Positions 15,281 to 59,959 of a DNA stretch of 64,000 nucleotides are shown here, piece by piece. How positions within the stretch are numbered: the stretch's first letter is position 1; every line of letters begins with the position of its first letter. The DNA comes from Hygrophila difformis (taxonomy: Eukaryota > Streptophyta > Magnoliopsida > Lamiales > Acanthaceae): assembly GCA_030278955.1 (NCBI GenBank), contig JAOANR010000009.1:35193504-35257503 (forward strand). Reading direction: 5' to 3'. A program made the position numbers and the translations under genes. A model generated the notes under the pieces. The model saw only the letters and a program-made list of their open reading frames with translations, searched no databases and was not told where the DNA came from.

Positions 15281-17655
15281 TCACTCAGATTCCTCAGATG
15301 AATCTGCCTCAGAAGCATCAGACTCCTCCTCCGAATTGGTATCCATGTCTTTTTCTTCATCAGACCAAACATCAGGAAGCTGTCTGAATAGCTTTTCAGC
15401 AGCCTGAACTCGAGTGTGCACCTGTGCTTCCAACACTTTCAGATGGTTAATGTGATCAGGAAGTTCATCACGTACCAAGGAGAAGGCATCTTTGGCAGGA
15501 ATCCGTCCTCCTGGTCCAGGCAGGTGAGGTTTCTTCTTCACGAGGGCAGAGGACAACTTGAAGTCTGCCAGTTTTTTGGGTCGATCATGCTTGCTCCCGA
15601 GAATGTTGAGATGGTTCAGATACTCAGTGATAAGTGCAGAAAGGGGCAGTGTAGTGTTGTACTTCCAAATGATTTTTCCAGCAAAGACCATCATTTGTTC
15701 GAGCACAAGAGCTCCATAGTTAATTTCATAGTTTTGATCTATGGCAAACAGCAACTTACAAATGTTCTTGGACACAACAGAGTCGTTAGCAGTGGGCATA
15801 ATATTGTGTGCACATAGTTTATAAAGGAGTGAAAACCATTGTGTTAAAGCACCAGCACTCAACCCTTTACCATGAATCCGATTTCCTTCCACGCCAGTAA
15901 GTGTCTCAGCAATTTTAGCCATATTGAACTTAGCAGTGCGTGAGTACACGGATTTGAAAGATGGTCGTGGTACCTGGAGAAATCGGTTCAGGGCTTTGGC
16001 TTTGAGTTTGAACAACTCTCCCTGAGCATAGCACAGCTCGAACCAGGGGCCCGTTGGATTGAGGACGTCTTCGCTCAGCTTTGCATAAAAATGCCGAACT
16101 AGTTGTCCCTTGAACTACTTGATCTCAGTGGCCCAGAAGAGTAGGGACCTCTTCTCCAGGTATTGGTGCCAACCCATCTCCTCATATCTTTGAGCTGCAA
16201 ATCTGATCTCCAGGTGGATCTTCATCTTTTCGAGCACAGTAGTGAAGTACTGTTCGGACACCTCATAGTAGAACTCAGTTGTGATGGCATTCTGTACGTC
16301 AATGATCTCTGGTTCATGGTCTTCAGATGATGTTTCAACAATCTTCCTTTTCTTGGAAGCTGCTTTGGAAGATCCTTTTGGTTCAGAACGAGTTCTCTTT
16401 TTCGGTTCGGACTCCTTTGGTGAACTCCTCACTGGTGAGGTTGGTTCTCGTGTCTCAATCTGGGGTTCCTCCTTTCCATGTGATCAGGTTCTTCTTCTTC
16501 TCCGATCTCTTCATCAGATTCTCCTTCTTCCTCAGTTCCTTCTTCCTCACTTTGAGTATCTTGAGATCCCAATTCCTCGGACTTGTCTTCAGTGAGATTC
16601 TCCCCCTCAGTTGGTTCCGGGGCATCATCATGAATGTGTTCAGTGTCGCCGCCTGACTCCTAGTTCTGATTGTCCTTAGAACTTGATTCCTCGACCTCTT
16701 CTTCTTGATCAGCTTCAGAGATAAGTGTGTCTTTAGCTAGGGGCTCTGGTTCAGTTTCCTTTCTCAGAAGATGCTTTCTCTTTTTGCTCGCTGTCCAGGC
16801 AATCTCTTCAGTGATCTCGTTTGCAGCATCAGTCTTTTCATCATCACTGATGTCGACCATCGACTCATCTCAAGAGCTATTGTCATCCGATTCTTGCACA
16901 TAATCTGAGTCCAGTTCTTCTTCATCAAGTGGTTCAGTTAGTGGTTCTGACATATTGGTTGGACTGGTTTGAGTCACTGTGGTAGTGACTTGTAGTGGTT
17001 CTTCGGGATTTTCGGCGGTGGTGGTGATAGGGGTAGATTCAGACACAGCACTTGCTTGCACGGCAACCTTCTGTGCTGGAGGTTTCTTCTTGGGCTTTGC
17101 GGTGGACACCTTTTGTGCATCCTTTGGTGTGGGATCCGCAGCTTTAGATGGCGCACTTGATTCAGTCACCTGTCCGGATCCCATGGTGGGGATGTTTTCC
17201 AGAATAGAGTCCAGGTGTTCCAGTGCTTTCGCCAAGTCTGCTTGAACACGCTCGCTGATGGAGGCATTCTTTTTGGCCACTGCTTTCTCTCGAGGTTTGG
17301 TGGTGGAGATAGCCTTCTTTTTTGCCTTCTGCGATCCTTCTCCCTTCTGCTTCATGGTGTTGGCTCCGGCTACTTCGGCCCTAATATCCAGGGGGTGTTG
17401 AACAGCAACGGTGGTGGCACCTTTCCCCCCGGCAGTGGAAGGAGATGAGGAGGGGAATGGGACAGGTACGATAGAAGGTGTTTCCGAGATCGTCTGTTCA
17501 ACAATTTCCTGTTGAACGGCTCTAGCTCTCCCCTTCGCGCTGGATTCCTCTGGAGCCCTTTTTGATGAAGCTGGAGTAGGATCCTCCGATTTAGAGCTTT
17601 GACTTCCTCGGGTTCTCACGATTGTAACTGAAGGAAAATCTTTTGACAAGAGCAA
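15281..17655 (-). pseudogene. Extra (env-like position) ORF of the Copia element, disrupted
   Basis: Minus-strand reading in four open pieces: 17655-16870 and 16860-16660 share a frame, separated by a stop at 16870; 16432-16115 and 16015-15281 share another, so one frameshift plus stops break it. The N-terminal part is Pro/Ser/Thr/Lys-rich and disordered (KQKGEGSQKAKKKAISTTK), followed by acidic blocks and basic NLS-like patches (KKRKHLLRK, SKKRKIV). The C-terminal 245 aa are globular and helical (NRIHGKGLSAGALTQWFSLL, PGPGGRIPAKDAF) and end in a Ser/Glu/Asp tail. No signal peptide or membrane segment is apparent, so despite its position it does not look like an envelope protein. Its function is unknown. 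Confidence 0.75.
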
Positions 17656-18085: not shown

Positions 18086-19560
18086 TTAGAAGATCTTGCA
18101 TAGGTCGAGATCTCTTCTTAATTTTTTTAATCTTTCACGATCTAGTGCCTTTGTAAATATATCCGCATGTTGCTCAGTAGTTCCGACATGTTGGATGGAC
18201 ACGATTCCTTCTTCAACAAGTTCTCTAATGAAGTGATGTCGAAGCTCAATATGCTTGGTTCTCCCATGTTGGACTGGATTCTTCGAGATGTTGATTGCAC
18301 TCATGTTATCACATAGTATCGTGAGGATTTCTTGATCAATTCCATAGTCTAGCATTATTTGCTTTATCCATAGCAATTGAGCACAACAACTTCCTGCTGC
18401 AATGTATTCAGCTTCGGCAGTTGAGAGTGAGATGGAACTTTGTTTCTTACTGTACCAACTGACCAGGTTGGTTCCAATGTAGAAGCATCCTCCGGTTGTG
18501 CTTTTTCTATCATCCGCGTCACCTGCCCAATCCTGCATCACTATAGCCAAGTAATGAAAGATTAGATTCATTAGAATACCCTATACCAAGATCACTTGTC
18601 CCTGAAACATATTTGATTACTCTTTTAGCTGCTTTCAAGTGGGATTCCTTGGGATCGGCTTGGTAGCGAGCACAAACTCCAACTGCATAGCTTATGTCTG
18701 GTCGACTTGCAGCTAAGTATAGTAGGCTTCCAATGATGCTTCGATAGAGTTTTTGATCCACACTTTGACCACTGGGGTCTTTGCTCAATTTGTCATTAGT
18801 CCCTATAGGCGTTCGGACAGGTTTGCTGGACTCCATGCCAAACTTTTTGACAATGTTCCGAGCATACTTGGTTTGGCTTAGAAATATGTCATCTTTCTTT
18901 TGTGCTACCTGCAAGCCAAGAAAATAAGTTAGTTCCCCAACCATGCTCATTTCGAAGTCTTTACCCAATATTTCGATGAAGTGGTCTTTGAGCACATGAT
19001 GTGTTGATCCAAAAAATATGTCATCTACATAGACTTGAGCGATTAGAATTCCTTTGTTTTCTCTTTTGATGAATAGTGTCTTGTCAAGACTTCCTCTTTC
19101 GAATCCATGTTCAAGCAAATACTTCAAGAGCCTCTCGTACCAAGCCCTAGGAGCTTGTTTCAATCCGTATAGTGCTTTGTTGAGCTTGTAGACATGTTGT
19201 GGATGATGAGGATCCTCGAATCCTTTGGGCTGCTCCACGTACTCTTCCTCATTCAGCCAACCATTGAGGAATGCACTCTTAAATCCATTTGATAAAGCTT
19301 CAATCCTAATGAACATGCGATGGACAACAAGAGCCGAACTGCTTCAAGTCTGGCTACGGGAGCAAATGTTTCACTAAAGTCCACTCCTTCAACCTGAGTG
19401 TATCCTTGAGCAACTAGACGTGCCTTGTTTCTTGTAATATTTCCTTTTTCATCACTCTTGTTGCGAAAGATTCACTTGGTACCAATTATATTTTTGTCTT
19501 TGGGCCTTTCAACAAGAGTCCAAACTTCATTTCTTTTGAACTGAAGTAGTTCATCCTGCA
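18086..19560 (-). pseudogene. pol: Copia reverse transcriptase and RNase H, disrupted
   Basis: RT begins near 19540 with [29 protein letters not shown], where the usual Trp codon is a stop. It continues with [35 protein letters not shown] and the catalytic AQVYVDDIFFGST, then FLGLQV and SLLYLAASRPDISYAV. RNase H follows in another frame (WAGDADDRKSTTGG, STAEAEYIAAGSCCAQLLW, KTKHIELRHHFIRELV-type end with HADIFTKAL). The frameshift lies near 18550. The YVDD catalytic box is intact. TGG to TGA changes are what deamination of methylated cytosine would give. Confidence 0.9.
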
Positions 19561-19570
19561 TGGCATTTAT

Positions 19571-21155
19571 TCAATGTTCATCCTGAAGAGTCTCTTCCAC
19601 TTTGAATGGTTCGATCTTGGATGTATAGCAGTGCAAGCCAACTAGTTCTTTGAAACCGATCTTCTTCCCCTGGGTTTTCCTCTTTTCATTGACATCGCCT
19701 ATTATGTCTTCAGGATCATGATGTTTGTGAATGCGTCCGTTGAGGTCTTTCTGAGGCTCAGAGTCATGTGACAAGGCGTCCAGACTGGGTGTTTGGACGG
19801 CTTCAGTGGACTCTTCTCCAGTGGTGATTCGTTCAGCATTGATCTGACCTGAATTCTGACTACTAGGTGAAGTTGATGGAATTTCATCTTCATTAAGTTG
19901 AGCAGAATCTTTGCATGAAACATCTTCTATGGCAACGTTTGTGGATTCAAGAACTTTCCTGGTCTTTGGTATATATATTCTGTATGCTCTGCTTGTGTTA
20001 GAATATCCCACGAATATTCCTTCATGGCTTTTTTCTTGGAATTTTCCCACATGTTCCCTGTCATTTAAGACAAAACATTTGCTGCCAAAAATATGAAAGT
20101 TAGTAATTGATGTCTTTTTACCGTTCCATATCTCATATGGAGTCATGAGGGAGTTAGGTCTCAAGTAGACACGATTTATGGTGTAGCATGCAGTGTTGAT
20201 TGCTTCAGCCCACAAGTACTCAGCAACATTTTTGGAGTTTAGGATAACCCTTGACATCTCATGCATGGTGCGATTTCTTCTTTCCACCACTCCATTTTGT
20301 TGGGGGGTCTTTGGTGCGGAGTATTCATGCTTGATTCCATGAGTTGTACAATATTCTTCAAATGACTGGTTTTCAAATTCTCGTCCATGATCACTTCGAA
20401 TCTGCTTTACTTTAGTGTCTTTTTAAGTCATGAGACGATTGCATAACTTTTCAAAGGCTTTGAAAGCGTCACCTTTTTCCCTGAGAAAGTCTACCCAAGT
20501 ATATCTAGAATAATCGTCAATGCACACAAAAATATATTTTTTTACCTCCCAAGCTTTCAACCTCAGTGGAACCAATAAGATCCATGTGTAGTAGGTTGAG
20601 ACATTTTGTTGATCCGAGGTGTTCAGAAAGCTTGTGTGAACTCCTGTGTTGCTTGTTCTTGGAACATTCATCACAGAACTCAATGTTACAGTTTCTGAAG
20701 TAAGGAAGGCCTTTTACGGCTTCGGTTCTACTGAGTCTGATTAAATCTTTGAAATTGAGATGCCCAAGCTTTTCATGCTATAAAATGATGTGATTTTCAC
20801 CTGCGACTGAACAAAAATTGCACGTTTGAACAAGTTGATAACAATTATTTTTAGAGCGCAAACCTCTCATGATGCATTCTTGATTTTGGTTGATCACTAG
20901 GCAATCTTTCTTGGTGAACTGTACCATTAGATCCTCATCACACAGTTGACTGATGCTAATCAAGTTTGCTTGAAGTCCATCAACAAAGAACACTGGAGAT
21001 AATTCTCGTGAGCCACTGTTCTCAATGATTCCTTATCCTACTAATGCAGCCTTTTTGCCATCTCCAAATACAACAAATCCTCCGTCGATTTCCTTGTAGT
21101 GTTTGAGCAAGTTCCTTTCTCCAGTCATGTGCTTTGAGTACCCACTATCAAAGTA
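19571..21155 (-). pseudogene. Copia protease and integrase, disrupted
   Basis: Protease core YFDSGYSKHMTGERNLL near 21150, with a stop where relatives have Trp just before it. GAG-pre-integrase domain: FFVDGLQANLISISQLCDED. Integrase core in broken frames at 20683-20423 (FVCIDDYSRYTWVDFLREK), then MVERRNRTMHEMSRVILNS, LWAEAINTACYTINRVYLRP, TPYEIWNGKK, FGSKCFVLNDRE and GIFVGYSNTSRAYRIY in one clean frame to 19571. The tail is an acidic, low-complexity linker leading to RT. Integrase joins element DNA to the host chromosome in the nucleus. At least three frame breaks are visible. Confidence 0.88.
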
Positions 21156-23143: not shown

Positions 23144-23147
23144 CAAT

Positions 23148-24050
23148 TGTTAGATAACCAGTAAACTAGTCCTGTAAACTAGTTCAAACACCTTTCATGG
23201 ACACATTATTCAGTTTAATAATAATATGCAGCGGAATGAAAAGTAAACTGAAAAGTAAACGAACTCAAAGATTTGTTGACCCAGTTCGGCACAAGCCTAC
23301 ATCTGGGGGATACCAATCCAGGAGATTTCACTACTTGTTCAACTCGATCCACGATCAAACAATAGTGTTTCAATTTGCCCAACTCCAACCTCCAAGCAGT
23401 TTGAATTATTGAACCAAAGCACTCCCCTGCTTTGGTGAAGATCTCCCCGACCTTGCTCCAATTCCTTGAAGGCTCCCCCTTCAAGTTACCCTTGGCCGAA
23501 ACTTGTTGGCAAACCCTCCTTCAAGAATAGATTCAATTAAGCTCGTGTGTTGACGACTCCTTGGAAAGCTTGACTGACTTCGTCGACTTCAATCAAGACC
23601 ACAGTAGCACAATCTCGATCAATTCTCCCCAAGGCAGTGTTGATCGAATAACTCCCTTCAAGATAGTATTTTCTCGAACACGGGAAGAGAACTTTTCTCA
23701 CTTCGGAATGGATATCAAGAATAGTTTCAAGAGAAATTGATTCAAAAGTCGTGCGTATCCATTCCTTGCCATCCGTATTTGAAGTGAGCCACAGCCTCCA
23801 TTCTAAGGTAAGATATTCTTACCATAATTCTTCCTTCCTTAGAATGGAGTTGCCCGAAATAGAAGATCTTAGTTTCCTTACTTCTTGAACACGATCTGGG
23901 CAAGGAATTAGCTAGTCGTTGGAGGATGATCTCGAGCAGATTCGCCAGCTTCTCTTCCTCTAAATAGTTTTTCGAATACTGACGGGGTTTGTTCAACAAA
24001 GTAGTGCAGACATCGGTTGTGAACACATTTGCTCAAAACTGGTTCCAACA
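23148..24050 (-). repeat. 5' LTR of the Copia element (903 bp)
   Basis: TGTTAGATAACCAG to GGTTCCAACA in plus orientation. Its pair is at 13915-14834. The 5-bp duplication gaatt follows. Confidence 0.92.
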
Positions 24051-30256: not shown

Positions 30257-30590
30257 TGATAATGGCCAAAATTGTCCATTATTTCCAATCCATTTCCGTG
30301 TCTGAGACGGACATTTTGATCGTATTCCCATCTTATTTTAATAAGAAAGCAGTTGAATGTGACAGATTAATGCGAGTTTGTAAGAATAATAAGCTGGTAA
30401 TGAAAAACACAAAAATATGCAATTTTAATTGCATTTGTGTTGGAAAAATCCAAAAACATGAAAAAAGGAAAAAAGAAAAGAAAAAGGAATGAAAAGATTA
30501 GCAAAAGAATAAAATAGCCCACAAAAATAAAAAAGATGGGAAAAATAATGAAAATCCCACAAACTGAAATCTTTGGCCAAGTATTGAAAA

Positions 30591-30930
30591 GCAATTCGGT
30601 CTATGCAATTCGGTTTATACCGAATTGCCCATGTAGACCAAACTACTGAAGAGAAGAAGAAAAATGATTAAGTTTTGAGAGGAGATGCAATGTGCCCAAT
30701 TCGGTCTATGCAATTCGGTTTACACCGAATTGATTGCATAGACCGAATTGCCTCAAACAGGGAAACCAAGCAGGAGACCATGAGCAATTCGAAATACTCA
30801 ATTCGATTTACACTTAAACCGAATTGATGTTGAAGACCACATCCCAGCTAAAGACCAAGAAAGAGAAGCCTCAAGCAATTCGATATACCCAATTCGGTTT
30901 ATACCGAATTGCCTGAGGAGACCGAATTGA
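30591..30930. repeat. Nested CAATTCGGT hairpin array upstream of the TATA box, LTR D
   Basis: Four units, starting near 30592, 30697, 30784 and 30876. The best is at 30697-30750: outer arm CAATTCGGTCTATG, inner arm CAATTCGGT, loop TTAC, inner arm ACCGAATTG, bulge ATTG, outer arm CATAGACCGAATTG. Both stems are perfect (14 and 9 bp). The units at 30592 and 30876 keep the same 14-9-4-9-4-14 spacing with outer-arm decay. There are about 14 half-sites in all. Confidence 0.9.
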
Positions 30931-31023
30931 ATTCAAAATGCATCCAGATGAAGCCGTGGAACACGTGGAAAATACATGCCATTGCTAATGGGCCCTGATG
31001 GGCCCGGGGTTTAGAGAAAGGTG

Positions 31024-31030
31024 TATAAAA
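31024..31030 (+). promoter_or_regulatory. TATA box of LTR D
   Basis: TATAAAA, about 95 bases after the upstream array and 770 bases from the LTR start. Transcription would begin near 31055. Confidence 0.7.
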
Positions 31031-31736
31031 GCTGATTCTCACCAACACTTGAAGGATCCAAAATTCTTACACTTTTCAACACTGAGCAGAGGACAAGGAG
31101 AATAATCAGAAGGTTCTTCACCCCTTAAGGGTTAGGTAGGTAGTTAGTTAGTTTATTTTTCATGTAATTTAGCTTAGTTTTAGTTATTTAATCTTAGTTT
31201 AGTTTGTAAAAGCTGTTTCTGCCATTTAGTGTAGCCATTTCCATACTCTTTACATGCTTTTTAGTTAGAATGAACCTTACCTTCAATCTAATGATGGTTT
31301 GGGTTATTTATCATGCTTTCAAGTGTTGAATACAAGGAAAAATTCCAGAAATGGGTTTTGTTTCATGTGTTTTGCACTTTTTAAATGCTTTCCTTAGCAA
31401 TAAATTTGTTAGAATGTTTGTTTGTTTCAACTAGGTTGCATTTAATGTGTTTCTAGTTGGCTTTCATTCTCAATAAATACATGTTTAGTGGGTGTTTGGT
31501 TTGATTTTATGCCTTAGAGCTTCAAATAGGTGTTCTTAGGTTTTAGATAATTTAGGACTTGTTAGAAATAGGTTTTAAATGCTTTATTTTCATCTTTATT
31601 ATTGTAGATCTTATATTTATGCTTCCTTAGATTATGTAGGTGTTCTTAGTTTTTGCAAGTAGTTCTTAGAATTTGTGGTTGTTTTAGGTAGATTAATCTT
31701 TGAATTTCTTGTTTGAGTTTTAGGTTATAATCCATG

Positions 31737-34046
31737 TGGGGTGATATCGAGTCGAGTCGAGCCCGATTAGTTAACTGCTTGAGCTTGACTTGACGGGAAA
31801 TATTACTACTCGAGCTCGAGCTCGAGCTCGAGTCGAGTAGTGATTCTCGAGCTCGAGCTCGAGTATCATCGAGTTCGAGCTCAAGATCGAGTAGCTTATT
31901 TTTTTTTTCTGGATTAGGCCCCTTAAACTTCCTCTATTTTTTTATAAGTGCTACGGATCCACCCAGCACGCAGTCCAATGCACATTTTAAATCATTAATA
32001 ACTCAAGTTCGGTATAAGTAAAAATTCTAAAAGTTCGATATTAAAAAACTACACGACGAGATGAATATAACAATATCTCACTTGGCTCTATTTTAACCTG
32101 TATAACTATGATAAAACTTTAAATCAAAGTGTTTGTGTGAACAGTGTCATATTTCAACATGTTGCATTTATTCAAGAACGAGTGAAGTATTACTAGTTTG
32201 ATTGATTAATTTTATTCATTATCAATAGAAGCCAATCAAAAGATCGTATTCATTTAAATAAAATTATAATTATTTATTCCTAATTTAAAACATACACTTT
32301 ACACACAAGCACAATTTTTTTGTTTATTCTAAATATTTTTTTTACACAGTAGCCAAAAAGACATCAATCATTTGTGATGAGTATGATTTTAATTGGTTTA
32401 AAAAATTGGATTGCGACAAAAAGGCATATTAAAAAGCCCATGGCAATAGAAACATACTACACTAAATAAAAAAAATATATCAATCTAAATTTGTGAGTAA
32501 AATAATGTGTTCTCTCAATTACTTAGAATATTCCAATTATAATTATTTATATGGAATCTCAAATGCCAATAAAAAAAAACTCACTGGGATGATAGGGTGG
32601 TATATGAGGAAATTGATTTTTTCAAAGCATATGAAAAAATTAATGAATCCATAAATGGATAGAGAAAACAAAAATATTGATATGGGCTTGTGAGAATGGG
32701 TAATGGGCTTAGAATATTTTGATTATAATTATTGATATGGGCTTGTGAGAATAGGTAATGGGATTGTGAGAATGGGGAGAATTTTTAAATATAAAATAAA
32801 ATATAGTAAAATTAATTAATAAACGAGTACTCAACTCGACTACTCGACTCGACTCGACTCGACTCGAGTATCATCGAGTTCGAGCTCAAGATCGAGTAGC
32901 TTATTTTTTTTTTCTGGATTAGGCCCCTTAAACTTCCTCTATTTTTTTATAAGTGCTACGGATCCACCCAGCACGCAGTCCAATGCACATTTTAAATCAT
33001 TAATAACTCAAGTTCGGTATAAGTAACAATTCTAAAAGTTCGATATTAAAAAACTACACGACGAGATGAATATAACAATATCTCACTTGGCTCTATTTTA
33101 ACCTGTATAACTATGATAAAACTTTAAATCAAAGTGTTTGTGTGAACAGTGTCATATTTCAACATGTTGCATTTATTCAAGAACGAGTGAAGTATTACTA
33201 GTTTGATTGATTAATTTTATTCATTATCAATAGAAGCCAATCAAAAGATCGTATTCATTTAAATAAAATTATAATTATTTATTCCTAATTTAAAACATAC
33301 ACTTTACACACAAGCACAATTTTTTTGTTTATTCTAAATATTTTTTTACACAGTAGCCAAAAAGACATCAATCATTTGTGATGAGTATGATTTTAATTGG
33401 TTTAAAAAATTGGATTGCGACAAAAAGGCATATTAAAAAGTCCATGGCAATAGAAACATACTACAATAAATAAAAAAATATATCAATCTAAATTTGTGAG
33501 TAAAATAATGTGTTCCCTCTATTACTTAGAATATTCCAATTATAATTATTTATATGGAATCTCAAATGCCAATAAAAAAACTCACTGGGATGATAGGGTG
33601 GTATATGAGGAAATTGATTTTTTCAAAGCATAAGAAAAAATTAATGAATCCATAAATGGATAGAGAAAACAAAAATATTGATATGGGCTTGTGAGAATGG
33701 GTAATGGGCTTAGAATATTTTGATTATAATTATTGATATGGGCTTGTGAGAATAGGTAATGGGATTGTGAGAATGGGGAGAATTTTTAAATATAAAATAA
33801 AATATAGTAAAATTAATTAATAAACGAGTACTCGACTCGACTACTCGACTCGACTCGACTCGACTCGACTACTCGACGAGTACTCGATACTCGACGAGTA
33901 TCATATTCTTCTACTCGAGCTTGAGCTCGATACGCGATTAAAATACTCGATACTCGACTCGACTCGAATTTTTTGAGTACGAGTCGAGCTTTTTCCGAGT
34001 CAAGTGCCGAGTCGAGTTCGAATAGCATTACTCGTTAATCATCCCT
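31737..34046. mobile_element. hAT-like insert (2.3 kb) with CGAGT-rich ends and internal duplication
   Basis: It splits LTR D. Flanked by aatccatg at 31729-31736 and 34047-34054 (the match extends one more base, taatccatg). Ends: TGGGGTGATATCGAGTCGAG on the left, AGGGATGATTAACGAG on the complement of the right. Both ends are dense in CGAGT/ACTCG pentamers. The inside is a direct tandem duplication of about 1005 bp. No transposase ORF. It shares ends and CGAGT blocks with the 273-bp MITE at 12859-13131. Confidence 0.8.
31861..33865. repeat. Direct tandem duplication, unit about 1005 bp
   Basis: The segment opening GAGTATCATCGAGTTCGAGC begins at 31861 and again at 32866. The copies differ by only a handful of substitutions and small indels in homopolymers, for example near 32340 against 33345. 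The junction falls in a (GACTC)n tract, suggesting unequal exchange between pentamer blocks. Confidence 0.9.
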
Positions 34047-34231
34047 AATCCATGCTATTACCCACTGAATATGTACATTATGGATAACCACAAAATATTC
34101 ACAAGTATGGCAGCGAGATGACACTGACGTGAAATGAGTGATGGGGTCAATCCCATCTATCATAAACCGCATCAGCTTAGAAACCGCATTGATACTTGTG
34201 AACAAAAAATACACTTATGTAAAAATGGCAT

Positions 34232-34714
34232 GCAATTCGGTCTAAGGCAATTCGGTCTACACCGAATTGCCCATGAAGACTGAAGTGTATGACAAAAAAT
34301 GTTTATTTATTTCCTTCATGTGGTTTCCATGCAATTCGGTTTATACCGAATTGCCCATATAGACCGAATTGACTTTGGAAACCACATTGTATGCACATCA
34401 TCCCATCATGTCAGTTTATTTTTTTTTATGTCAAACCAATTCGGTATGCCAATTCGGTCTATACCGAATTGTCTTGGCAAATCGAATTAACCCTCCCCCT
34501 TTTTTTGAAGCAAATGCCTTAGCCAAATTTGAGTGAGGGAGTAACCTCATCAATTCGGTTTGTCCAATTCGGTTTATACCGAATTGCTTTGACAAACCGA
34601 ATTAGATGATGCTATCTCACATCCTTGCAATGATTAATTGGGTAAGGTCATACTTCATAACTCATGCATTTTCAATTAGGTTTACATTGCACCTAACCCA
34701 GTAAACCGAATTGA
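34232..34714. repeat. Nested CAATTCGGT hairpin array downstream of the TATA box, LTR D
   Basis: Five units, near 34232, 34332, 34437, 34551 and 34675. The unit at 34551-34604 has the same 14-9-4-9-4-14 geometry as the unit at 30697: outer CAATTCGGTTTGTC with GACAAACCGAATTA (13 of 14 pair), inner CAATTCGGT with ACCGAATTG, loop TTAT, bulge CTTT. The half-site is identical to that of the upstream array. Confidence 0.9.
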
Positions 34715-34879
34715 CCTCTTCTCTCTATTTTTAAAAAACTCCAAAATATTTTACTTCCTGAGTTGTGTAAGTTGCATGGGTGTACTGGGCTTAGGCCCAT
34801 CACACCTAATTTTATCCATTACACATCTCAACCTATTAGTGTCTAAATTATTGTGTGACTAACACTCACATAATACAAN

Positions 34880-35378
34880 NNNNNNNNNNNNNNNNNNNNN
34901 NNNNNNNNNNNNNNNNNNNNNNNNNNNNNNNNNNNNNNNNNNNNNNNNNNNNNNNNNNNNNNNNNNNNNNNNNNNNNNNNNNNNNNNNNNNNNNNNNNNN
35001 NNNNNNNNNNNNNNNNNNNNNNNNNNNNNNNNNNNNNNNNNNNNNNNNNNNNNNNNNNNNNNNNNNNNNNNNNNNNNNNNNNNNNNNNNNNNNNNNNNNN
35101 NNNNNNNNNNNNNNNNNNNNNNNNNNNNNNNNNNNNNNNNNNNNNNNNNNNNNNNNNNNNNNNNNNNNNNNNNNNNNNNNNNNNNNNNNNNNNNNNNNNN
35201 NNNNNNNNNNNNNNNNNNNNNNNNNNNNNNNNNNNNNNNNNNNNNNNNNNNNNNNNNNNNNNNNNNNNNNNNNNNNNNNNNNNNNNNNNNNNNNNNNNNN
35301 NNNNNNNNNNNNNNNNNNNNNNNNNNNNNNNNNNNNNNNNNNNNNNNNNNNNNNNNNNNNNNNNNNNNNNNNNNNNNN
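34880..35378. other. Assembly gap (N run)
   Basis: 499 N bases. It hides the right end of LTR D and the left end of the Tekay LTR fragment. The true length is unknown. Confidence 1.
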
Positions 35379-37756: not shown

Positions 37757-38851
37757 ATGCATGAATCTGAATACGGAGGTCACCATGGCCCCACTCGAAC
37801 AGCTCGCAAGGTTCTCGAGTGTGGTTCTATTGGTCTAACTATTTATGAGGATTGCAAGGCATTTGTGAAGGCCCGCGACAGATGCCAAAGGTTAGGGAAC
37901 ATTTCCAAGAGGGATGAGATGCCTCAAACAATGAATTCTCACTCTTGAGAGTTTCGATGCTTGGGGTATTGACTTCATGGGATCGTTTCCACCATAAGGT
38001 GGAAACCTCTATATCTTGGTAGCTGTCGACTATGTGTCCAAATGGGTCGAGGGCGGTCGCATTACCAACCAATGATGGTAGCCAAGTCATCAAATTTCTC
38101 AAAAAAAACTTTTTCAGCAGATATGACATACCTAGGGTGATAACATCTGATGGAGGAACTCACTTTGTTAATAAATCTTTTGAAAGCTTAATGAATAAAA
38201 CTGGAATCCTCCATAAGATAGGCACGCCTTACCATCCCCAAACCAGTGGTCAAGTCGAGGTATCAAACCGCGAAATCAAACATATACTCGAAGCCACGGT
38301 TGGGATAACCCGAAAGGACTGGGCAAGAAAGCTCAATGACGCTCTATGGGCATACCGCACTGCATTCAAGACTCCCATCAGGATGTCTCTATACAGGCTT
38401 GTCTTCGGAAAAGCCTGTCATTTGCCTGTGGAGTTAGAGCACAAAGCATACTGGGCCGTCAAAACGCTTAATTTCGATCCAAGAGTTGCTCAGAGCAAGC
38501 GTAAATGGGACCTTAATGAAATTGAGGAAATATGAGCGCAAGCCTATGAGAACTCAAGGATCTAGAAAGAGCGGACCCAGAAGTTGCACGATCGCCCGGA
38601 TTAAATCTAAGCACTTCTATGTAGGTCAAAATGTACTATTGTTCAATTCCAGATTGAAGCTATTCCCCGAAAAGCTGAAGTCCAGATGGGAAGGACCATA
38701 TGAGGTGCTGGAAGTGTTTAAAAGTGGAGCAGTCAGGATCCGAACTGACAAAGGCGATATAGTGGTGAATGGGCAAAGGCTGAAAGAATATCTCGGACAG
38801 TTCGAACCCGAGAAAGAAGTCCAAACAGTGGCGGAACCGGCCTACACATAA
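37757..38851 (+). pseudogene. Athila integrase (element B), disrupted
   Basis: HHCC zinc domain: ESEYGGHHGPTRTARKVLEC and CKAFVKARDRCQRLGNISKR. Catalytic core: WGIDFMGSFPP followed by a stop, then [30 protein letters not shown] (second Asp) and [20 protein letters not shown] (Glu). C-terminal part: [39 protein letters not shown] and VNGQRLKEYLGQFEPE. Two frameshifts (before 38032 and near 38510) and the stop near 37995 break it. The 5' side is cut by LTR fragment F1, so gag, protease and RT are not visible. It is close in wording to the integrase of Athila A. Confidence 0.88.
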
Positions 38852-38961: not shown

Positions 38962-39295
38962 TGATATTTGGAGAAAATCTAATAGATTGATTTATCTGCC
39001 TTGTAGGAATTTTAGAACCACCAAAAAGAAAAATAAAGCTGCTAATCAGGTTCCTGGTTGGATTGATTCTATAATTAAGAGAAAAATATTCCCGGAATTT
39101 AAAGCAATTTGAAATTCGGAATATTTTTTATAAAGATAGAATTAATCCAACCGAATTTTGAGCAAGATAAATATTAAATGCCCACTAAACATTTGAGAAA
39201 ATAGTCTCGACTCAAAATTTCTCCTAAGTCCAAAATTAATAAAAATGAATGGAGGCCCATTTCTCCGCACTAGGCCCAGTCCGTTTATTTTGAAT

Positions 39296-39728
39296 TTACG
39301 TCACTAGCCAAGTCCCGCCTCCTGGTACGTCGTGAAACCAGTATCACGACGTACGAAATCCGGCTAGCGACGTAATTCTTTCCCCTTACGTCGCTAACCT
39401 CTCTTTACGTTGCGAACCCAGGTTCACGACATTAGACCAAGGCTAGCGACGTAAGCTTCTTTGGTCCCGCTTCACCCCCCTTACGTCGTGAAACCTTACG
39501 TCACTAATATAGGTTAGCAACGTAAGTCAGTATCACGATGTAAACCCCTTTGGGCCCCACTTGATTTGATTACGTTCTGATCCTTTTGCACTTAGCCTAC
39601 GTCGCTAACCTTGTTTCGCGACGTAAGCTAAATGGATCGCGACGTACTAACGTCGTGATACCCCCTTTCCCTGTTCCCACTTACGTTGCGAACCCTGTTT
39701 CGCGACTTGAGTTGGGATCATGACGTAA
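39296..39728. repeat. Nested ACGTCG hairpin array upstream of the TATA box, LTR B
   Basis: About five units. Unit 1 (39296-39375): outer arm TTACGTCACTAGCC with GGCTAGCGACGTAA (13 of 14 pair), inner arm GTACGTCGTGA with TCACGACGTAC (perfect 11 bp). Unit 2 follows with TTACGTCGCTAACC and GGCTAGCGACGTAA outside and TTACGTTGCGAACC inside. Half-sites are TACGTCGTGA and TACGTCGCTA variants. Confidence 0.88.
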
Positions 39729-39738
39729 CCCTTCCCAA

Positions 39739-39746
39739 TTTAAATA
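39739..39746 (+). promoter_or_regulatory. TATA-like box of LTR B
   Basis: TTTAAATA within CCCAATTTAAATACCC, 10 bases after the array, in the same relative place as in LTR C. Confidence 0.6.
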
Positions 39747-41035
39747 CCCATCTTTAGTTTCTTCCTCCCCAATCCACTCCCACACTTAGAGATTTTCGAA
39801 CACTTTCTCACGAACAACACACTGTTCGTCGTAACTTTGAATGCAAATTCAAGAGGAAACTCTGTCAAAATTTTCGAAATCACTCATTGCATCGTCATCT
39901 TCGAATCCCAAGCCCTGGTAAGTGATACCTCCTTCGATTCCCGAGTATTTCGTACTCCCTGTTTTGCGATTTTTGGGGGTATTTGAGTACAATAACCTGT
40001 AAAAGCATGAAATGAAGGCCGATTATGTGTGTTCTCTCCCTCTGGTTTCTATTTTTGAACATTTCGAAATATGGGCATTGTGTTTCTATTTTGGTGAGAG
40101 TGTTCTGTTTTTAGCCGAAAGTGAAATAGGGATTGGGGGTTTGGTCTATTGTCATTATGGAGGGTTTGGAGGAGTTCGGATCTTGTTTGGTGTATTTGAT
40201 TTTTGAACTTAGGGGTTTGCCAGAGAACACAACGGAGATGTTAAGGTTTTGACAGTGATGGTGTTTTTGCCGTTGATGAGTTTTCGAGTTTTTAGGGTTC
40301 CTAGAGATGTGTTCTGCCTCAGTTTGTCCTTGCTTAAATTTTGTTTTGTTTTCTTTGTGCCATGAAATTCTTGATGGAGCTTGTCTAAATCCCTAGAAAA
40401 TTTTGAAACCTGAAAAGGGTGAACTGATAAACATTGGGGTGCTTTTTGGGTATCATGATGTTATTGGTTGCTCTGTTCATGCTTTGGTGTTTATGAGCAT
40501 GATTGATCTGTTGGAATGCATGTTTGAACTATGTTAGAGGTATGATAGTTATCCATGTGTTGCTTCATGTTCTCATCATGTTTGAAGTGAGCTCTGTCTT
40601 GAGTTTTTGATGGTCTATGTGCATGGCACTGTGAGTACTGCTAGTATAAATTGAATGTTTATCTCATTCTCAGTTTATCTGTATGACTTGGACTGTAAAA
40701 CGTTTGTGCTTGCACTTATTTGGCAAATCTGTGCACACAAAGTTGCTTTTTCTGCAACACTTTGTCTATATTAGGTAGTGTTTTTGTGCACTAGGTAGTG
40801 TTTTTGTTCCCAATGAAACACTTTGTCTATATTAAATAACAGTCTTTTGGCTCTTGATAACTGCTATTTCTTTTCAAAAATCCAAAAAATGGGACCACTC
40901 AACATCCTTTTCATTTAATAAAAAGAGTCAACTTTCATTGAAAATATAAAAATAGTGCATTTGTTGCTTGTGTGTTGGTTTTTATCTGCCCAATATGCCA
41001 TCGTCCAATGAAGCAGTTTCGACTCGCTACATCTC

Positions 41036-50912: not shown

Positions 50913-53900
50913 GAACAAATAGTTGTTGAATCAGTTGTCGGATTACCGACTTGCAAACAGGACGATGCTTTGATTCAGGCATCTCAGAGCCGAACAAAAA
51001 TCAAGGAACTCAAAGACGCATTAGAAAAGGAATTCGGGCTGAAGATTATTGCTGAGACTGAGGTAAAGTTTTAATTAAAAAAGGATTGGGATAAGAATGT
51101 GGAACCGGAGCATAGAAATTACAAGGCATCGGGTCTGGAAAGGGATTTTTATCACTGTCTGATGGGATTTTGGGAGCGCATGACGGATGAATCCAAAGAA
51201 GATATGAAGGTTCCAGATGATGTCCATTTTGAGAAAATAATTCTGAGATTTAAAGAGTATATGGGAAGATTGATGAACGTGTGAGAAAACAATTTGTAGA
51301 AAGAGCTCCCGACATCAGCGGAATGGTCAAAAGTGGTATATTCTTAATGCATGAGGCACTGCCTTTTACTTTCAAGCCACTCCTTCTGCAAAATAAAGGA
51401 GTTGTGGATCAGAGATGGCTTACACAACAAGCAAGAAAGAGAAACAGGGAGCTATGCCATAATTTTTTCAGTACATTCCAGCAGGCTGCAGATTTTGGAG
51501 AGACAAATCAGATCTCTCAGATGCAGACGATCATTGAGAAAACTAGAGAGGCTAGGCAACACTGGCATGATCTGATGGTGTTATGGGGAAAAGGAAGGGA
51601 AGATATCACTAAGCCAATATTGAAATAAGGTGTCATTTTGCCGGATGAACACCATTTCGACACGATCTTCCTAGCCGAAACGTATAATCCCACCATCCTA
51701 TCAGAACAACAGCCGCGGGGCTTATATCAGATTTCTGTAATGAGGGAGTAAATCACAAGTGTTACACGGCGCAGGAGAGGAAAGTGCTTAAAAGGAATCA
51801 AAAACAAACTCGTCTCATGAATAAAGCCGAGACCGAGGAATATTTGAAAATGGATTTCCCCCACGACATGTCTTATTTGAAAGAAGGCGAAAAGGACATG
51901 GTTGGATCTATGATAGAAGAGAACAAGATTGAATTCCTGAACTTCTTGATGGAAATGGATGCAGTCGCATTGGAATACTGCAACAAAGGAAGCAACAAAA
52001 TCCTTCATTATGACAGGGAGAACCGAAGTGAGTTTGGCAAACTCATCAGAGAGAAATGGGCCAAGCGATTGTCTGTCATCACACTACTAGTTTTTGTGAA
52101 GAAGTATCTGAAGAATGCAGAGAAGAATCTGGGAATTAATTTGGATGAAGAAGAAGATGTATTGATTGATGAATATACAGGCGCAACTTCCCCACCTTGG
52201 GTATACACTGAACCCCAGCCTCAACCGCAATCTCAGCCGCAGCTGCACCCGCAGCCTCAAGTTCAACACGAGCAGGCCACTAGAGCAGCCCCAGTGCTAA
52301 AAGACAAAGGTAAGGGAAAAGCGGCTGAGGAGCCTCCAAAGAAAAAGTTGAAAAATCTAGCCCGGATCGAAATGGATGCCGAAAAAGCTAAAATTGAACA
52401 AGAAAAGACGGACAGAGAAACGAGAATGGAGATGCAGGCTCAAGAACTGGCGAGGGACAGAAGTGAAAGGGTAGCATCTGACCGGCTGAGCTTCGAATGT
52501 GGCCATCTGCCTCCAATTATAACGAGGACACCAAGGGATGAGACAGATCCAAACCCTCCTATCACCACTCACACCCCAGTGTACAAGGACAAAATTCGAG
52601 CTGAAAAGAAAAGAGGAAGAAAGAAAGAAAGCGTTAAAAGAAGAGCAAATTTTGAAAAATATTGAGAAAACGCGAGCTGAAGAGGAGAAGCTGAGAAAAG
52701 AAATGGAGGATAGGAAAGCTCCTGAAAAATTGCAAGTAGAATTGAAAGTCGGAAAATCTGGGGAAGGTGAAAAAGAGAGAACGGGAGGGAGATGATGAAT
52801 ATTGATCACGGGACAAACTGAGGGGGCAGGACTGAACATTAAGGGAGAACTAAGGGAATTAACTGACCCAACACTCAATCAGAAAGAGAGACTGGGGCGG
52901 GCAGACAAGCAAAAATCGATCAAATACGCCAAACCAACTTGTAGGAAGATGAGTGTGGAAGCCCCAGGGAAAGATTCGGGTTAAAAGCCGATGATCCATT
53001 ATGGAAGGAAGTAAACGAAAACGGCGAAGCATGGTTTAGTCAAGCCGCTCAGGTTCTCGACCCATTGGTGGGGACATCAAGAATTGAAGCAATCACTCCC
53101 CAAGGTCCAACCGAAATAAGAAAGAGAAGGAGAATCTTAATTGGAGAATGAGACAAAGCTGAAGAGAGTGAGCAAATGGGAGTTGACCCAGTCATACTGT
53201 CTGAGTTGTTAAAAGAAGAATCAGTTGAGGAACAGAATGCTAAAAAATTGAGAGTTGAAAGAGAGGAAAGAGATAGAATTGAAGCTGAACATGAAAGGAG
53301 AGATGATGAAGCTAACAACCTACTCCTGGCATCACCATTTACGCGAACAAGCAAATAGATTCTTAGAGAGGCCAGTGATAGGCGGGAAAGGGAGGAGGAG
53401 GATGAGGTATCAACTAGTGTTGATGATCCGTATTTTCCTGTATTTACTTTTCCACTTCCTGTAACTCATAAACTCAAAATTTTAAATAATTAAAATGACC
53501 AAGAAGAGGCGGAACGAAATAGGAGAGAGGAGCAAGCAAGGGAAAACTTGGAAGAGGAGAGACAAAATCTGAATGAGCCAGAAAGAAAATGAGCCAGCTG
53601 ATCAGGGCGCAGGCGAAGAAACAGATTGGCACAGTAGTGATGATGAACCCCAAGAGTCAATCGGTTCAATTAAACCAGTTGACTTTTTGGAAGAGATAGG
53701 GGTGAGAACAAGGATGGGAATTTTAGAAAAAATCGAGAAACAAAAGGCAGATTATGGAAGGAGACATCATAAAGAAATTCAATGGAAAGTCGGTAGGGGT
53801 CAAAGCTTATGGAGAGTTGTAAGAAGCAATTGTACCCGATAAAGGATTCGAGCCAGATGCACTGACGCATCCAACTGTCGACTTGTGGAGAACACAACAA

Positions 53901-55180
53901 GAACGGGGGGAATTTTTGTTGCACCATGGGGAACCGGGATATGTGGAGCTTACCAGAGAATTCTTCTGCAACATTGACGCTAAGATGAGGACAACTTGGG
54001 TTAGAGGGCGTACCATTGATATATCACCAGAATACTTAAACAGGTTCCTCAGTACGCCAAATCATGCCGATGAGTTCCCAGAAGGCGAAATTCTCAACAA
54101 AAGGGGCAAAACAAAGAAAAATCCTACATACCGTGCCATAGCCGACAGCCTAACAAAGAGGCTGACCACCGTCATCACATTCTTCTTCACAGAGCTAAAA
54201 TTGGAATTCATGCCCACCTATGAATTTTATATGGCAAGAATTAGACCAAGCTCGCACCCACAGACTACTCCCGAGAGCATCCTGATGGGGTTTGCAACAG
54301 GCCAGCATATTTTTGAAGTCAGGACCAACAGAATCAAGCAAAAGTAAGCTTTGTGTTACCCCAATCTTACCAGAAAAGTTTGCTTTGATCAAGGGGTCGA
54401 CTTGGACGAATTCGCTGCAGAAACCACAGTGGTACTAAATCCCCCCATCTGAGTTCCTTAGCTGCCAAATCGTGAGAGAACCATGTACACCCTTCCTCGA
54501 TTTTCCGAAGACTCTGACATCCAATCATCCTTCATATCTAGTGATCAAGCACCATCAGTGCAAAGAAGAGCATCGATGCCACCTCTTGTGCCAAAAAGAA
54601 GGAGAAGAATTCAAGCTGGTGAGGGCCCCTCAAGGGTTAATGTTGAGCTGCTTGAAGAAGCTGCCAACCCAGTAAATGAAAAAGCTCAGACTCCGATCCC
54701 CACTTCTGCTCCAGTTCAACCAAGAGCTCAACCATCTCAACCTCCTCCCAGAAGCCAAAATGTGTCTCAACATCCAGCCGACTCACATGCTTTGAAATTG
54801 TAAGCGGCATGACCAAAACTATGGCCGACAGCATGAAGTCACTGGCAGATCTTATGATTCTGGGGAAGGAAGAGGAAAGAAGAGAGAGAGCGGAGGAGAG
54901 AAAAAGAAGGGAAGAAAAAGAAAGGAAAAAAGAAGAAAAGGAAGCTGAAATGAGGAGGAGAGACGATTAGTTCAAGAGGCTACTGCTGGAGAGCCAAGAA
55001 AAACTACATAGAAAACGGTTAGAAAGTGAGGAAAGGCAAAGGAAAATGAAGGAGACCACACTCAATCAGCAAGCTCAATTGATGCAACTTCTGGTTGCCG
55101 CTATCCCAAAGCCGCCTCCGCCTCCGCCTCCAAAAGACGATGTTGGACTATCCTCTCAGCCACAGGATCCGAAGGGTTGA
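50913..55180 (+). pseudogene. Extra (env-like position) region of Athila C, disrupted
   Basis: At least seven open pieces in three frames. 50913-51284: helical, KIKELKDALEKEFGLKIIAE and KNVEPEHRNYKASGLERDFY-type sequence with one stop. 51784-52665: 293 aa, FPHDMSYLKEGEKDMVGSMI and KRLSVITLLVFVKKYLKNAE, then a Pro/Gln repeat and a highly charged coiled coil. 53883-54347: the Athila putative plant transposon domain, YVELTREFFCNIDAKMRTTW, VRGRTIDISPEYLNRFL and MPTYEFYMARI. 54483-54803: Pro/Ser/Gln-rich. The end is again a charged coil. No signal peptide or clear membrane anchor is visible, so an envelope role is not supported by the sequence. Many frameshifts make it a relic. Confidence 0.78.
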
Positions 55181-56818: not shown

Positions 56819-56832
56819 AAATGTGAGGATGT
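56819..56832 (+). other. Polypurine tract of Athila C
   Basis: AAATGTGAGGATGT directly before the LTR start TGATAATGACC. Confidence 0.85.
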
Positions 56833-57112
56833 TGATAATGACCAAAATTGTCCATTATTTACAATCTATTTCCGTGTCTAATACAGGCATTTGATCGCAT
56901 TTCGGTCTTATATTAAATAAAAAAGCAGTTGAATTTGACAGAAATGTGCATGTTTGTAAAAAAATAAGCTGGTAATGAAAAACACAAAAATATGTAACTG
57001 TATTGCATTTTGTGTTAGAAAAATAAAAAAACATGAGAAAAAAAGAAAATAAAAAGATGGGAAAAGAAAAGAAAAACCCACAAAAAAGTAATTTTGGTAC
57101 TTTTTGGTGTTG

Positions 57113-57491
57113 GATGTCGCTAGCCAAGTTTACGTCGTGAAATGTGGTTCACGACATAGGCCATGAGGCTCGCGACGTAGGAACAAAGGTGGACAAGCAA
57201 GTCTGGAGTTTACATCGTGAAACATGTGTCATGAGGTAAATAGTGGCTCACGACGTAACCAGGAGGATCACGACGTAGAGCCAAAGCAAGCAGATATTCA
57301 AGGTTGAAGACCTTACGTCGCGATCCTAGCTTCGCGACATAAGTGATGGATCACGACGTACTGGGGTGTCACGACGTAGGTTGCCCAGTTTAGGGACAAG
57401 AAATGTCTTTGGACCGAGAACTTACGTCGTGAAAAATGTCTCACGACGTAAAATGAGGCTCGTGACGTAAGCAGTGGAGGATCACGATGTC
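57113..57491. repeat. Nested ACGTCG hairpin array upstream of the TATA box, LTR C
   Basis: Four units near 57115, 57205, 57310 and 57420. In unit 1 the inner arms TACGTCGTGAA and TTCACGACATA are enclosed by TGTCGCTAGCC and GGCTCGCGACGTA. Unit 4 has a perfect 11-bp stem, TTACGTCGTGA with TCACGACGTAA. Spacing is about 90-110 bases. Confidence 0.88.
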
Positions 57492-57543
57492 TGAGGCCCA
57501 GAAATTCAAATCAAATGGGCCCATGGGCCTAGGGTTTCACGCC

Positions 57544-57551
57544 TATTTAAA
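57544..57551 (+). promoter_or_regulatory. TATA box of LTR C
   Basis: TATTTAAA, about 53 bases after the array. It follows the GGGCCCATGGGCC and GGGTTT segment shared with LTR D. Confidence 0.65.
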
Positions 57552-58172
57552 GGGTGTTGACTCTCATGTTCAGTCACTTCACAACATTCCAATACTTCGA
57601 GACAATAGAAGCTCTCAAGCTGTGTAGTTAGGTCGTGTAGCTTAGCATTTTTTATGTTATTTAATTTATGCAATGTAGTTTAGTCTTTAATTAGTGTAGA
57701 TTGATTGTTCTTAGTTGCCTTTTAGCTTAGATGGCCACATTTTCACAGTTTTCTTAAACTTTTATTAGGGTTTGAAATGCTCAAATCATGGGTATTATCA
57801 AACAATTTTTTGAATAAATGGGAAGTTAATCATGAAAAGAGTCCCAAAAACATGAAATGGAACATTCTCTTCCATGGATTTTACTGCTTTGTTTGTATTT
57901 TGGCGATTTGGCCATTTTTATTTATTACTTAGTTAGTTTTTGTATGCTTTTTGGGTCAAGAAAATGCACGGGTGTGTGAATGTTACCCTAGATCAGGTTC
58001 ATTTGAGCTTTAAATTCTGTTCTTAGTTTAGATTTAAATTCCCTGTTATTTTTGCTTATTTAAATTCTTATTCGGTTTCATTTTATTGAGTAGATTAGAT
58101 CAATGCACCTGAGAAAGGGATAAAAATCACATGAACTGCATGAATTTGTCTCAAACACAAGTTCTGGAAAAT

Positions 58173-58841
58173 CTAAGTCGCTGGCCTCTAACCTACGACG
58201 CTAACCCATGTTAGCAACATGAAGAGGGTCTAGGGATGTAGGTAATTCTGGAATCGTGTGAAAATTTTACACCTCTGACGTCGTGACACTCACGTCGTGA
58301 CCCTGACCCTAGGGTCACGACGTAATTTTTTATCTCACAACGTCAGGAGTCCCAAAATACTCCACTTATTTTTATAAAATTTCATGTCGTGATACCCATG
58401 TCGTGACCCTACGTAATTTCCTTGTATCACGATGTGAAGCCCAAATTTACTCTCATTTAAAACTGCCTACGTCGCAAGACTCGCTTCGTGATCCTAGGAT
58501 CACGACGTAATTTATGGTCTAGCAACATAGAACCCAAAAAACTCATTTTTCAAACCATTTACGTCGATAGACTCACGTCGTGATCCTAGGATCACAACGT
58601 AACTTATAGTCTAACGACGTAACCCTCACCCTTTTTCGAAAATTCAAAATTCTAATTTCCTGTTTTACGTCGCAAGACTCACGTCGTGATCCTAGGATCA
58701 GGACGTAATTCTTTAGTCTCGCAACGTAAAACACTCATTTCTAACCTTCAAGTACGTCGTTAGACTCACATCGTGATCCTAGGGTCACGACGTAATTTTT
58801 GTCGAGCAAGGGTCACGACGTAATACCTGTCTAGCGACGTG
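58173..58841. repeat. Nested ACGTCG hairpin array downstream of the TATA box, LTR C
   Basis: Six or seven units, about 85-105 bases apart. At 58559-58622 the outer arms are TTACGTCGATAGACT and AGTCTAACGACGTAA (14 of 15 pair) around an inner palindrome CACGTCGTGATCC / TAGGATCACAACGTAA. At 58665-58729 the outer arms are TTACGTCGCAAGACT and AGTCTCGCAACGTAA. The inner core GTGATCCTAGGATCAC is fully self-complementary in two units (near 58488 and 58581) and nearly so in others. Confidence 0.9.
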
Positions 58842-59959
58842 AAAGGCACCATCATGCCAAATTTTCCATTTCTTCATTTTTCTCACTTAATTAATTGAAC
58901 CTTTAACATTGATTAGAGATCAAAATTAGCAATAATTAAGATCAATGATTAAATTGATATAAGAAATTTTGTTCAATTCTCCATTAAAAGGTTTTCTATA
59001 AATTAAACTCTTATGTTTTAAGCATACATTCTGGGCTTTAATTAATTATTGAATGGAGGGTTGTTTAGACATAATGAGTAATCATGGATTAAGTTCCATA
59101 CCTTGCATGAGAAACCAATGTTTCTCATATAAGATGATTTTTATTTTTTATTTAAAACCCTAAAACATTTTCTTAATTTATTTTGGTCTTTCTCAGTATC
59201 TGTATGAAGCAGATAGCGAAATCTACCAGAAACTAATGTTGGCAGACAGTCCCTTCACCGAGATAAAGTTAGCTCGTCGTTTGTGTATTAATTGCTATTG
59301 CTATTTTGCATGGTCGAGATAGTGGCTAGTGGAAGTCTTGGCGGATGGTTCTTGCTCAGGAATTTAAATTAGCTGCTCAGCAAGCCCCTATCTGGATACA
59401 GTTTTATTTTCTTTACTTTAATTTCAAACCCAAATCTTGAACTGCACGAATACTAGATGATATCAGTCAATATCGTCTAGTAATTAATACAGTAAAAGAG
59501 TATGTAGGTTTTTCTCCCAATTCACAGATAATAAGGGTCTGAATGCCAGCGACTACTGTCACTTAAGACTATTCTGCTGTCTAAAAACGTTTCACCTTGA
59601 ATAATTGGGAACTAGATAGCAGATGTTTGCAGTCCAGATAACCCCAATTATTTCTGTCATTTTTTTAGTCAAAAAATGTTCACTTGAACTCCTCGCACCT
59701 CAGGCTATTCCATCTTTGTGTAGCAAATTCTGTCTAATCCCACCATATATTTTGGGATAATTTATTTATCTTTTTATATTAAATTATGCATTATATTATT
59801 ATGTAAATATTGTGTTCCATTTATTTTGGGATTATTCCCTTGGATGTAGAAGTCTTGATTTTAATCAGATGTTGCATGATAAATTTCCAACAAAAAATTT
59901 CTTTATAAAATCCATATCTGAGTAAGGGATGAATTCTAGAGTTAGGACTAATTCATATC

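Follow-up and report, generated by a model that had tools for sequence, protein, structure and literature searches.

Results

Half-site arrays in LTRs D, B and C

The window analysed here, a stretch of 64,000 nucleotides (C15:35193504-35257503), carries the long terminal repeats (LTRs) that we call D, B and C, whose relatives were searched for in the 915 Mb (246 contigs) of the genome. Each of them contains one or two arrays of a short half-site, and the following features were delimited.

30257..34876, + strand: LTR D, split by about 2.3 kb of inserted DNA (about 31.73-34.06 kb) and followed by masked bases
30592..30929, + strand: D U3 array of CAATTCGGT half-sites
30990..31029, + strand: D pre-TATA anchor GGGCCCTGATGGGCCCGGGGTTT and TATAAA box
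34233..34713, + strand: D leader array of CAATTCGGT half-sites, separated from the D U3 by the insert of about 2.3 kb
38962..41030, + strand: LTR B, starting TGATATTTGG and broken near 41030 by another repeat; backbone unrelated, over the stretches compared, to that of C or D
39297..39727, + strand: B U3 array of TACGTCG half-sites, the in-place counterpart of the A-type arrays in B relatives
56820..56832, + strand: AATGTGAGGATGT, directly upstream of C and the same as upstream of B, which we take to be polypurine-tract-like
56833..59959, + strand: LTR C remnant, starting TGATAATGACC; a relative's LTR can be aligned up to 59959
57131..57491, + strand: C U3 array of TACGTCGTGA half-sites, each module with a single forward copy and two or three reverse ones
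57517..57552, + strand: C pre-TATA anchor GGGCCCATGGGCCTAGGGTTT and TATTTAAA box
58277..58841, + strand: C leader array of TACGTCGTGA half-sites, in modules mostly of two forward and two reverse copies

In both C and D, the array that precedes the TATA box has a matching counterpart in the presumed transcribed leader. The leader array of D (34233-34713) was missing from an earlier note on this DNA, which also took 58841 as the limit of LTR C; that position is where C's second array ends, inside the stretch that aligns to the relative. Beside D's leader array there is a run of N at about 34880-35378 (592 N in the whole window), and the insert that splits LTR D includes a sequence of about 1.03 kb with ACTCG-rich ends in two overlapping copies (31846-33881; 98.4% identity).

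The array modules recur roughly every 80-115 bp, and the commonest consists of two forward and two reverse half-sites, at offsets 0, 14, 27 and 45 in D and 0, 14, 32 and 52 in the C leader. In C and B relatives the forward-reverse spacing is mostly 19-20 and the reverse-reverse spacing 18-20, while in D these are mostly 13 and mostly 17-18, respectively. The window's five arrays contain 3, 5, 6, 9 and 4 ten-base inverted repeats, where dinucleotide shuffles gave 0.05-0.22 and three control stretches (the C 5' flank and the between-array parts of C and D) had none; two relatives had 1 to 4 of them per array, and 1 in one of two between-array stretches. The RNA-fold z scores were -14.8 for the C leader, -5.6 for the C U3, -8.9 for the D U3 and -10.7 for the D leader. 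The CpG observed/expected ratio was 0.86-1.64 in the five arrays versus 0.15-0.78 in the six other LTR stretches measured.

Homology of the LTR backbones

The 5' ends of C and D both open with TGATAATGRCC and are 84.4% identical over 231 columns (56833-57057 and 30257-30481). Local alignment of C with D, scored against shuffles, gave a z value of 66.5 in the 5' flank; the homology is weaker before the TATA box (8.5) and in the 500 bases after it (6.1). The flanks of B (5' flank and 500 bases after the array) gave z values of 0.14 to 0.97 against those of C and D, and B is unrelated to them there. Much of what the earlier note had read from the letters is upheld by these comparisons, namely a common U3 backbone in C and D, homology before the TATA box (weaker than in the 5' flank), different half-sites in the arrays of the two LTRs, and TACGTCG units in the unrelated LTR B.

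An intact relative of D (L082/L083) has two LTRs of about 5.0 kb that are 98.7% identical. The 5' LTR of this one element has TG...CA termini, ending in TTTCA, and is followed by TGGCGCCGTTGCCGGGG, presumably the primer-binding site typical of Athila/Tat. This site, together with the earlier note and an integrase core ORF upstream of LTR B (38032-38532, PF00665), points to the name Athila-type (Ty3/gypsy) for these elements. The same AATGTGAGGATGT stands directly in front of B and of C, so these two look like the 3' LTRs of elements sharing one internal end.

Other elements lie in the window. The direct repeats at 13927-14834 and 23147-24050 (95.4% identity) probably flank a minus-strand Copia element as its LTRs, with reverse transcriptase and RNase H-like ORFs at 18086-20290 between them; 3' of pol there is a PF20167 ORF (15281-16012), for which none of 400 candidate relatives reached E <= 0.001. 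A second, partial PF20167 ORF (putative plant transposon protein) lies upstream of LTR C at 53883-54344 and scores 38.8 against a curated cut-off of 45 bits; it is a possible candidate for a protein that reads the arrays.

Each LTR is nearly uniform in its half-site spelling

Among relatives with the C backbone (40 scored of 3140 first-look candidates, all 40 retrieved), the half-site is YMCG-N-CGNNA, with T, A or a G/A mixture at the centre, and a few of these copies have no array or too few sites. For D, 30 of 41 rows were cut out; the D-backbone loci counted have AATTCGG sites and zero sites of nine CG-N-CG kinds. For B, 12 pieces of 49 rows were taken, one of them array-less (L096, dropped) and one with another motif (L093, kept outside the comparison of T and A types). 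The half-sites of L093 (C3:17802290-17802850) are about TGCGTCGCAATCC, a further spelling, and L096 (C10:32727351-32727911) begins like an LTR (TGATTCTTCAC) behind the AATGTGAGGATGT that also precedes B and C, and may represent a third LTR backbone. Yet another spelling was seen in a nested LTR, where TGTCG occurs 13 times and CGTCG 0 times. The ACGT core, which is bZIP-type, was considered as the recognised word and ruled out, as it is missing in the TACGACGCTA, TACGGCGCTA and CAATTCGGT half-sites.

The central base is fixed per LTR and not per palindrome. Since the T and A groups are defined by the central base, that is, by the very trait compared, we added a leave-one-out prediction: the central base was predicted correctly from the other sites of the same LTR in 145/168 cases in B and 386/430 in C, where the commonest base would give 0.56 and 0.55, respectively. 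The purine fractions of the U3 and the leader are also correlated (Spearman 0.71 over the 34 LTRs with at least 4 sites per region), including L042, L011 and L032, the disagreeing rows, whose leader readings are spread over four bases. L029, with an A-type U3 and a T-type 'leader', was discarded as an exception, the leader stretch belonging to a second LTR nested in the first, although it too is included in the Spearman value. The uniformity within each LTR that the earlier note had described is therefore nearly, if not strictly, what is found.

T and A types differ in place, site by site

We then compared aligned arrays of the two types, with strand-ambiguous sites dropped or oriented in the counts. 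Over 15 aligned half-sites of 11 B-type LTRs, the centre is T in 70/71 sites of the six T-type LTRs and A in 49/54 sites of the five A-type LTRs (the others being 3 T and 2 G). Over 23 aligned half-sites in the leaders of 21 C-type LTRs (the 23 LTRs of the tree set below minus L013 and L026), it is T in 164/169 sites of ten T-type LTRs and A in 145/153 sites of nine A-type LTRs, while the two G-type LTRs have 18 G and 15 A. The majority letters of the T and A groups, which are defined by this base, differ at 11/12 centre columns in B and 19/22 in C, compared with 11/193 and 34/583 spacer columns (Fisher's exact test, centre versus spacer, 1.6e-11 and 3.5e-19) and with 11/164 and 26/271 columns elsewhere in the half-sites.

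The spacers between the sites are homologous across types, as their majority letters are the same in 172/265 columns in B and 354/496 in C, where random pairing would give 74 and 143. Spacer identity in B is 0.65 within the T type, 0.59 within the A type and 0.54 between them, and this higher identity within types indicates that type also follows lineage. The U3 of one LTR of the C lineage, L022, holds both kinds of site (7 A, 6 T and 1 G), as would be left by a site-by-site transition. Aligned sites of related LTRs are thus re-spelled one by one, in place, between the T and A types. The earlier note had proposed that the motif is exchanged as a block; for these two types the in-place differences at the centres, set among homologous spacers, rule this out, and the arrays of C and D, from which the proposal came, do not align with each other.

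Type mostly follows family within the C lineage

The larger of two trees was built from 23 of the 41 non-D LTR starts, namely those with both later backbone segments longer than 200 bases and with a type assigned. In the 1535-column tree of these C-type LTRs, one branch (support 100/100) has seven A and two G types on one side and twelve T and two A types (L022 and L037) on the other. Four changes of type are needed, the minimum being two; the AU test does not reject one clade for all T types (p 0.157), and L022 and L037 resemble the two sides of the tree to about the same degree. The 253-column 5' tree is weak, with 9 starred forks of 46, and D forms its own clade (support 100/99).

The check proposed in the earlier note, of array types against a backbone tree, therefore comes out mostly on the side of agreement, and types largely follow families within the C lineage. 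As type goes mostly with backbone within each background, part of the pattern is ordinary descent. Repeated switching within this lineage, which that note had named as support for a cassette system, is not forced by the four changes, the single T clade being retained. The parallel lies elsewhere, in the unrelated B and C backgrounds, which show the same set of spellings.

As for D, a T-type LTR (L078) and the D-type L082 are 86.7% identical at their 5' ends and 78-81% over the 3' part of about 2.2 kb, with a middle of about 2 kb that gives no alignment. The D motif may have come from replacement or from long divergence.

The same spellings in two unrelated backgrounds

Letter combinations were counted in 76 exact half-sites of B and 560 of C, leaving out 2 and 53 sites, respectively, as ambiguous. 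A centre of A or G goes with the lead TA in 27/29 half-sites in B and 212/226 in C, and with the end CTA or TGA in 26/29 and 216/226; the end CAA, in turn, goes with a central T in 22/24 and 155/162. The same combinations of centre, lead and tail are hence found in B and C, despite their unrelated flanks, and nothing points to arrays having passed from one background to the other.

When the half-sites were masked, B and C arrays of the same type were no more alike than those of different types (median score 16.0 for both, p 0.69), whereas within each background same-type arrays scored above different-type ones (34.6 versus 22.8 in C and 26.2 versus 22.8 in B). As the flanks of B and C are unrelated and their masked same-type arrays are no more alike, we infer that the same re-spelling occurred separately in each background. 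However, the B-C score with half-sites masked (16.0) exceeds that obtained with shuffled C arrays (11.65), a likeness beyond the masked letters, so B and C arrays may still go back to a remote common origin.

The arms are independent at the centre and partly matched at the edges

Palindrome pairs were compared in the 46 LTRs with at least 2 pairs. The central base is matched in 174/235 pairs, against 175.6 when arms are shuffled within the LTR. A selected helix would match its own arms better than arms elsewhere in the LTR, and at the centre there is no such excess; the arms of the two G/A LTRs carry a mixture of A and G. The tails, in contrast, are matched in 116/235 pairs versus 99.4 shuffled (a value reached by 3 of 2000 shuffles), which indicates that dyad symmetry or pairing matters too, and the two lead letters in 118 versus 110.9 (reached by 103 of 2000). 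In D, an outer arm pair differs between the window copy and L082 on both arms with complementarity kept, as judged by eye.

Palindromes with T on the left and A on the right number 437 genome-wide (208 + 229; control 5, 4 + 1), and A/A palindromes 2612 (control 2). Mixed T/A palindromes are thus a real class and the uniformity is not strict. The repeated occurrence in the genome of such mixed forms, TACGTCGCTATCCTTGGATAGCGTCGTA for example, suggests families with one preferred central base in the left arm and another in the right.

Discussion

We lean, if only modestly, towards reading the arrays as sites for a putative sequence-specific trans-acting factor whose preference has changed, with the sites following in place. 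On this reading the factor would bind to the arrays, both ahead of the core promoter and within the transcribed leader of Athila-type LTRs, and would recognise, most likely in DNA, half-sites about 10 bp long (YMCG-N-CGNNA) that are arranged as dyads. Its preference would then change, to a T, A or G/A centre with matching edge letters or, in D, to CAATTCGGT, and selection would bring almost all half-sites of an LTR to the new spelling, each changing singly at its own position. The consequence would be either promoter activation or the removal of silencing, the latter as VANC proteins do. We infer the existence of the factor, its binding to DNA rather than RNA, and these two possible outcomes; a central base matched in pairs no better than after shuffling, near-uniformity per LTR, change in place and shared spellings all support a factor. 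The change of partner factor suggested in the earlier note fits with a near-uniform code common to unrelated LTR backgrounds. On the other hand, the matching of tails and the strong RNA-fold scores suggest that pairing may matter as well, and they count against a reading by the factor only.

It is tempting to speculate further, although we find this extension doubtful, that the spelling of the half-site is an address code. Several versions of the reader, borne by the elements or by the host, would coexist in this plant, each serving LTRs by their spelling regardless of backbone; Athila-type families in two backgrounds would have re-spelled the roughly 40 dispersed sites per LTR singly, so as to keep their reader or to switch to another, and the sites would act as private anti-silencing or promoter keys.

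Other forces could have shaped the arrays. Selection could act on RNA or single-strand hairpins, with the leader or U3 folding for packaging, translation or stability and the arm letters being secondary. The RNA-fold z scores of all four C and D arrays, the tails matched within palindromes and the D outer arm pair that changed on both arms while remaining complementary are what such selection would leave. Yet the central base is matched in pairs no better than the make-up of the LTR provides, A and G are mixed between arms in the G/A LTRs, hairpins alone need no single sequence for all half-sites of an LTR, and U3 DNA outside the 5' transcript would serve the same fold as well; taken as the whole explanation, hairpins seem unlikely to us.

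We consider it quite unlikely that the pattern reflects a conflict with silencing, in which small RNAs from or against the hairpins drive the change and the new spellings are escapes. Escape should scatter changes rather than shift all sites to one new spelling, which weighs against the earlier suggestion of escape from silencing alone, and the spacers, equally open to 21-24-nt RNAs, changed only at the background rate. The idea nonetheless has precedents, as two papers describe an excess of small RNAs on the palindrome clusters of Sirevirus LTRs in maize (PMC10760457) and RNA-directed DNA methylation targeting the VANC-bound non-coding regions of VANDAL21 (PMC10398659). The arrays are also rich in CpG compared with the other stretches of these LTRs that were measured.

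Mutation without selection could homogenise the arrays if template switching or conversion among half-sites occurred during reverse transcription. The half-sites are the sequence common to the modules, so microhomology switches could copy them, and the palindrome arms are partly matched. The conversion tracts would, however, have to be limited to about 10 bp, since the spacers retain their own sequence; the C U3 and leader arrays, about 0.8 kb apart, agree in most LTRs; and the same letter combinations recur in the unrelated B and C backgrounds, all of which makes this explanation very unlikely in our view. Finally, the earlier idea of a cassette exchange, with whole arrays swapped between LTRs through recombination, can draw on the L078 and L082 ends that align around a middle that does not, but we give it hardly any credence given that T and A types differ in place, that, once half-sites are masked, sharing a type does not make a B and a C array more alike, and that weak homology between C and D is kept between their arrays.

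The role of palindromic LTR arrays is unsettled, and the two unrelated backgrounds offer replicated, column-by-column contrasts, in which the T/A differences separate the recognition of letters from the pairing of hairpins. TACGTCGTGA, TACGACGTGA, TACGGCGCTA and CAATTCGGT are natural short probes in a search for the reader. The open-licence matches listed contained no paper describing arrays of this kind in the LTRs of Athila elements, nor concerted change in place. Two known systems resemble what we describe. Sirevirus (Ty1/copia) LTRs carry 8-32 copies per element of a palindromic, CpG-rich RM box upstream of the TATA box; the boxes differ between elements and are alike within one, with a CGG-CCG core in 12/13 of those listed (PMC2829016). 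The arrays reported here share with this description the many dyad-symmetric motifs upstream of the TATA box and their uniformity within an element, and D's CGGTYTARACCG (CGGT...ACCG) matches the CGG-CCG core. This core is found only in D, however, the CG-N-CG types being without it, and the host, by its primer-binding site and neighbouring integrase, appears to be an Athila-type Ty3/gypsy element and not Ty1/copia. Ty3 elements in maize are reported to be generally without an obvious peak of such palindromic structures (PMC10760457). In addition, our elements have a second array in the leader, their half-sites often come as two forward and two reverse copies, and homologous arrays with concerted differences in place are documented here, which sets them apart from the Sirevirus boxes.

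The second system is that of the Arabidopsis VANDALs. There, VANC proteins bind short motifs in non-coding tandem repeats; the target motifs differ between families and evolve synchronously, related proteins have different specificities, and the motifs are described as accumulating and evolving via tandem-repeat formation (PMC5735166, PMC10398659). Here too, non-coding motif arrays differ among related elements and are uniform within one. In contrast with the VANDALs, which are DNA transposons with a known reader, the reader in our case is only putative, and aligned dyad sites change in place with their spacers kept, a route other than tandem-repeat formation. If such a reader is found, the Athila-type LTRs would exemplify how a regulatory factor can change together with dozens of sites in one element without tandem-repeat turnover.
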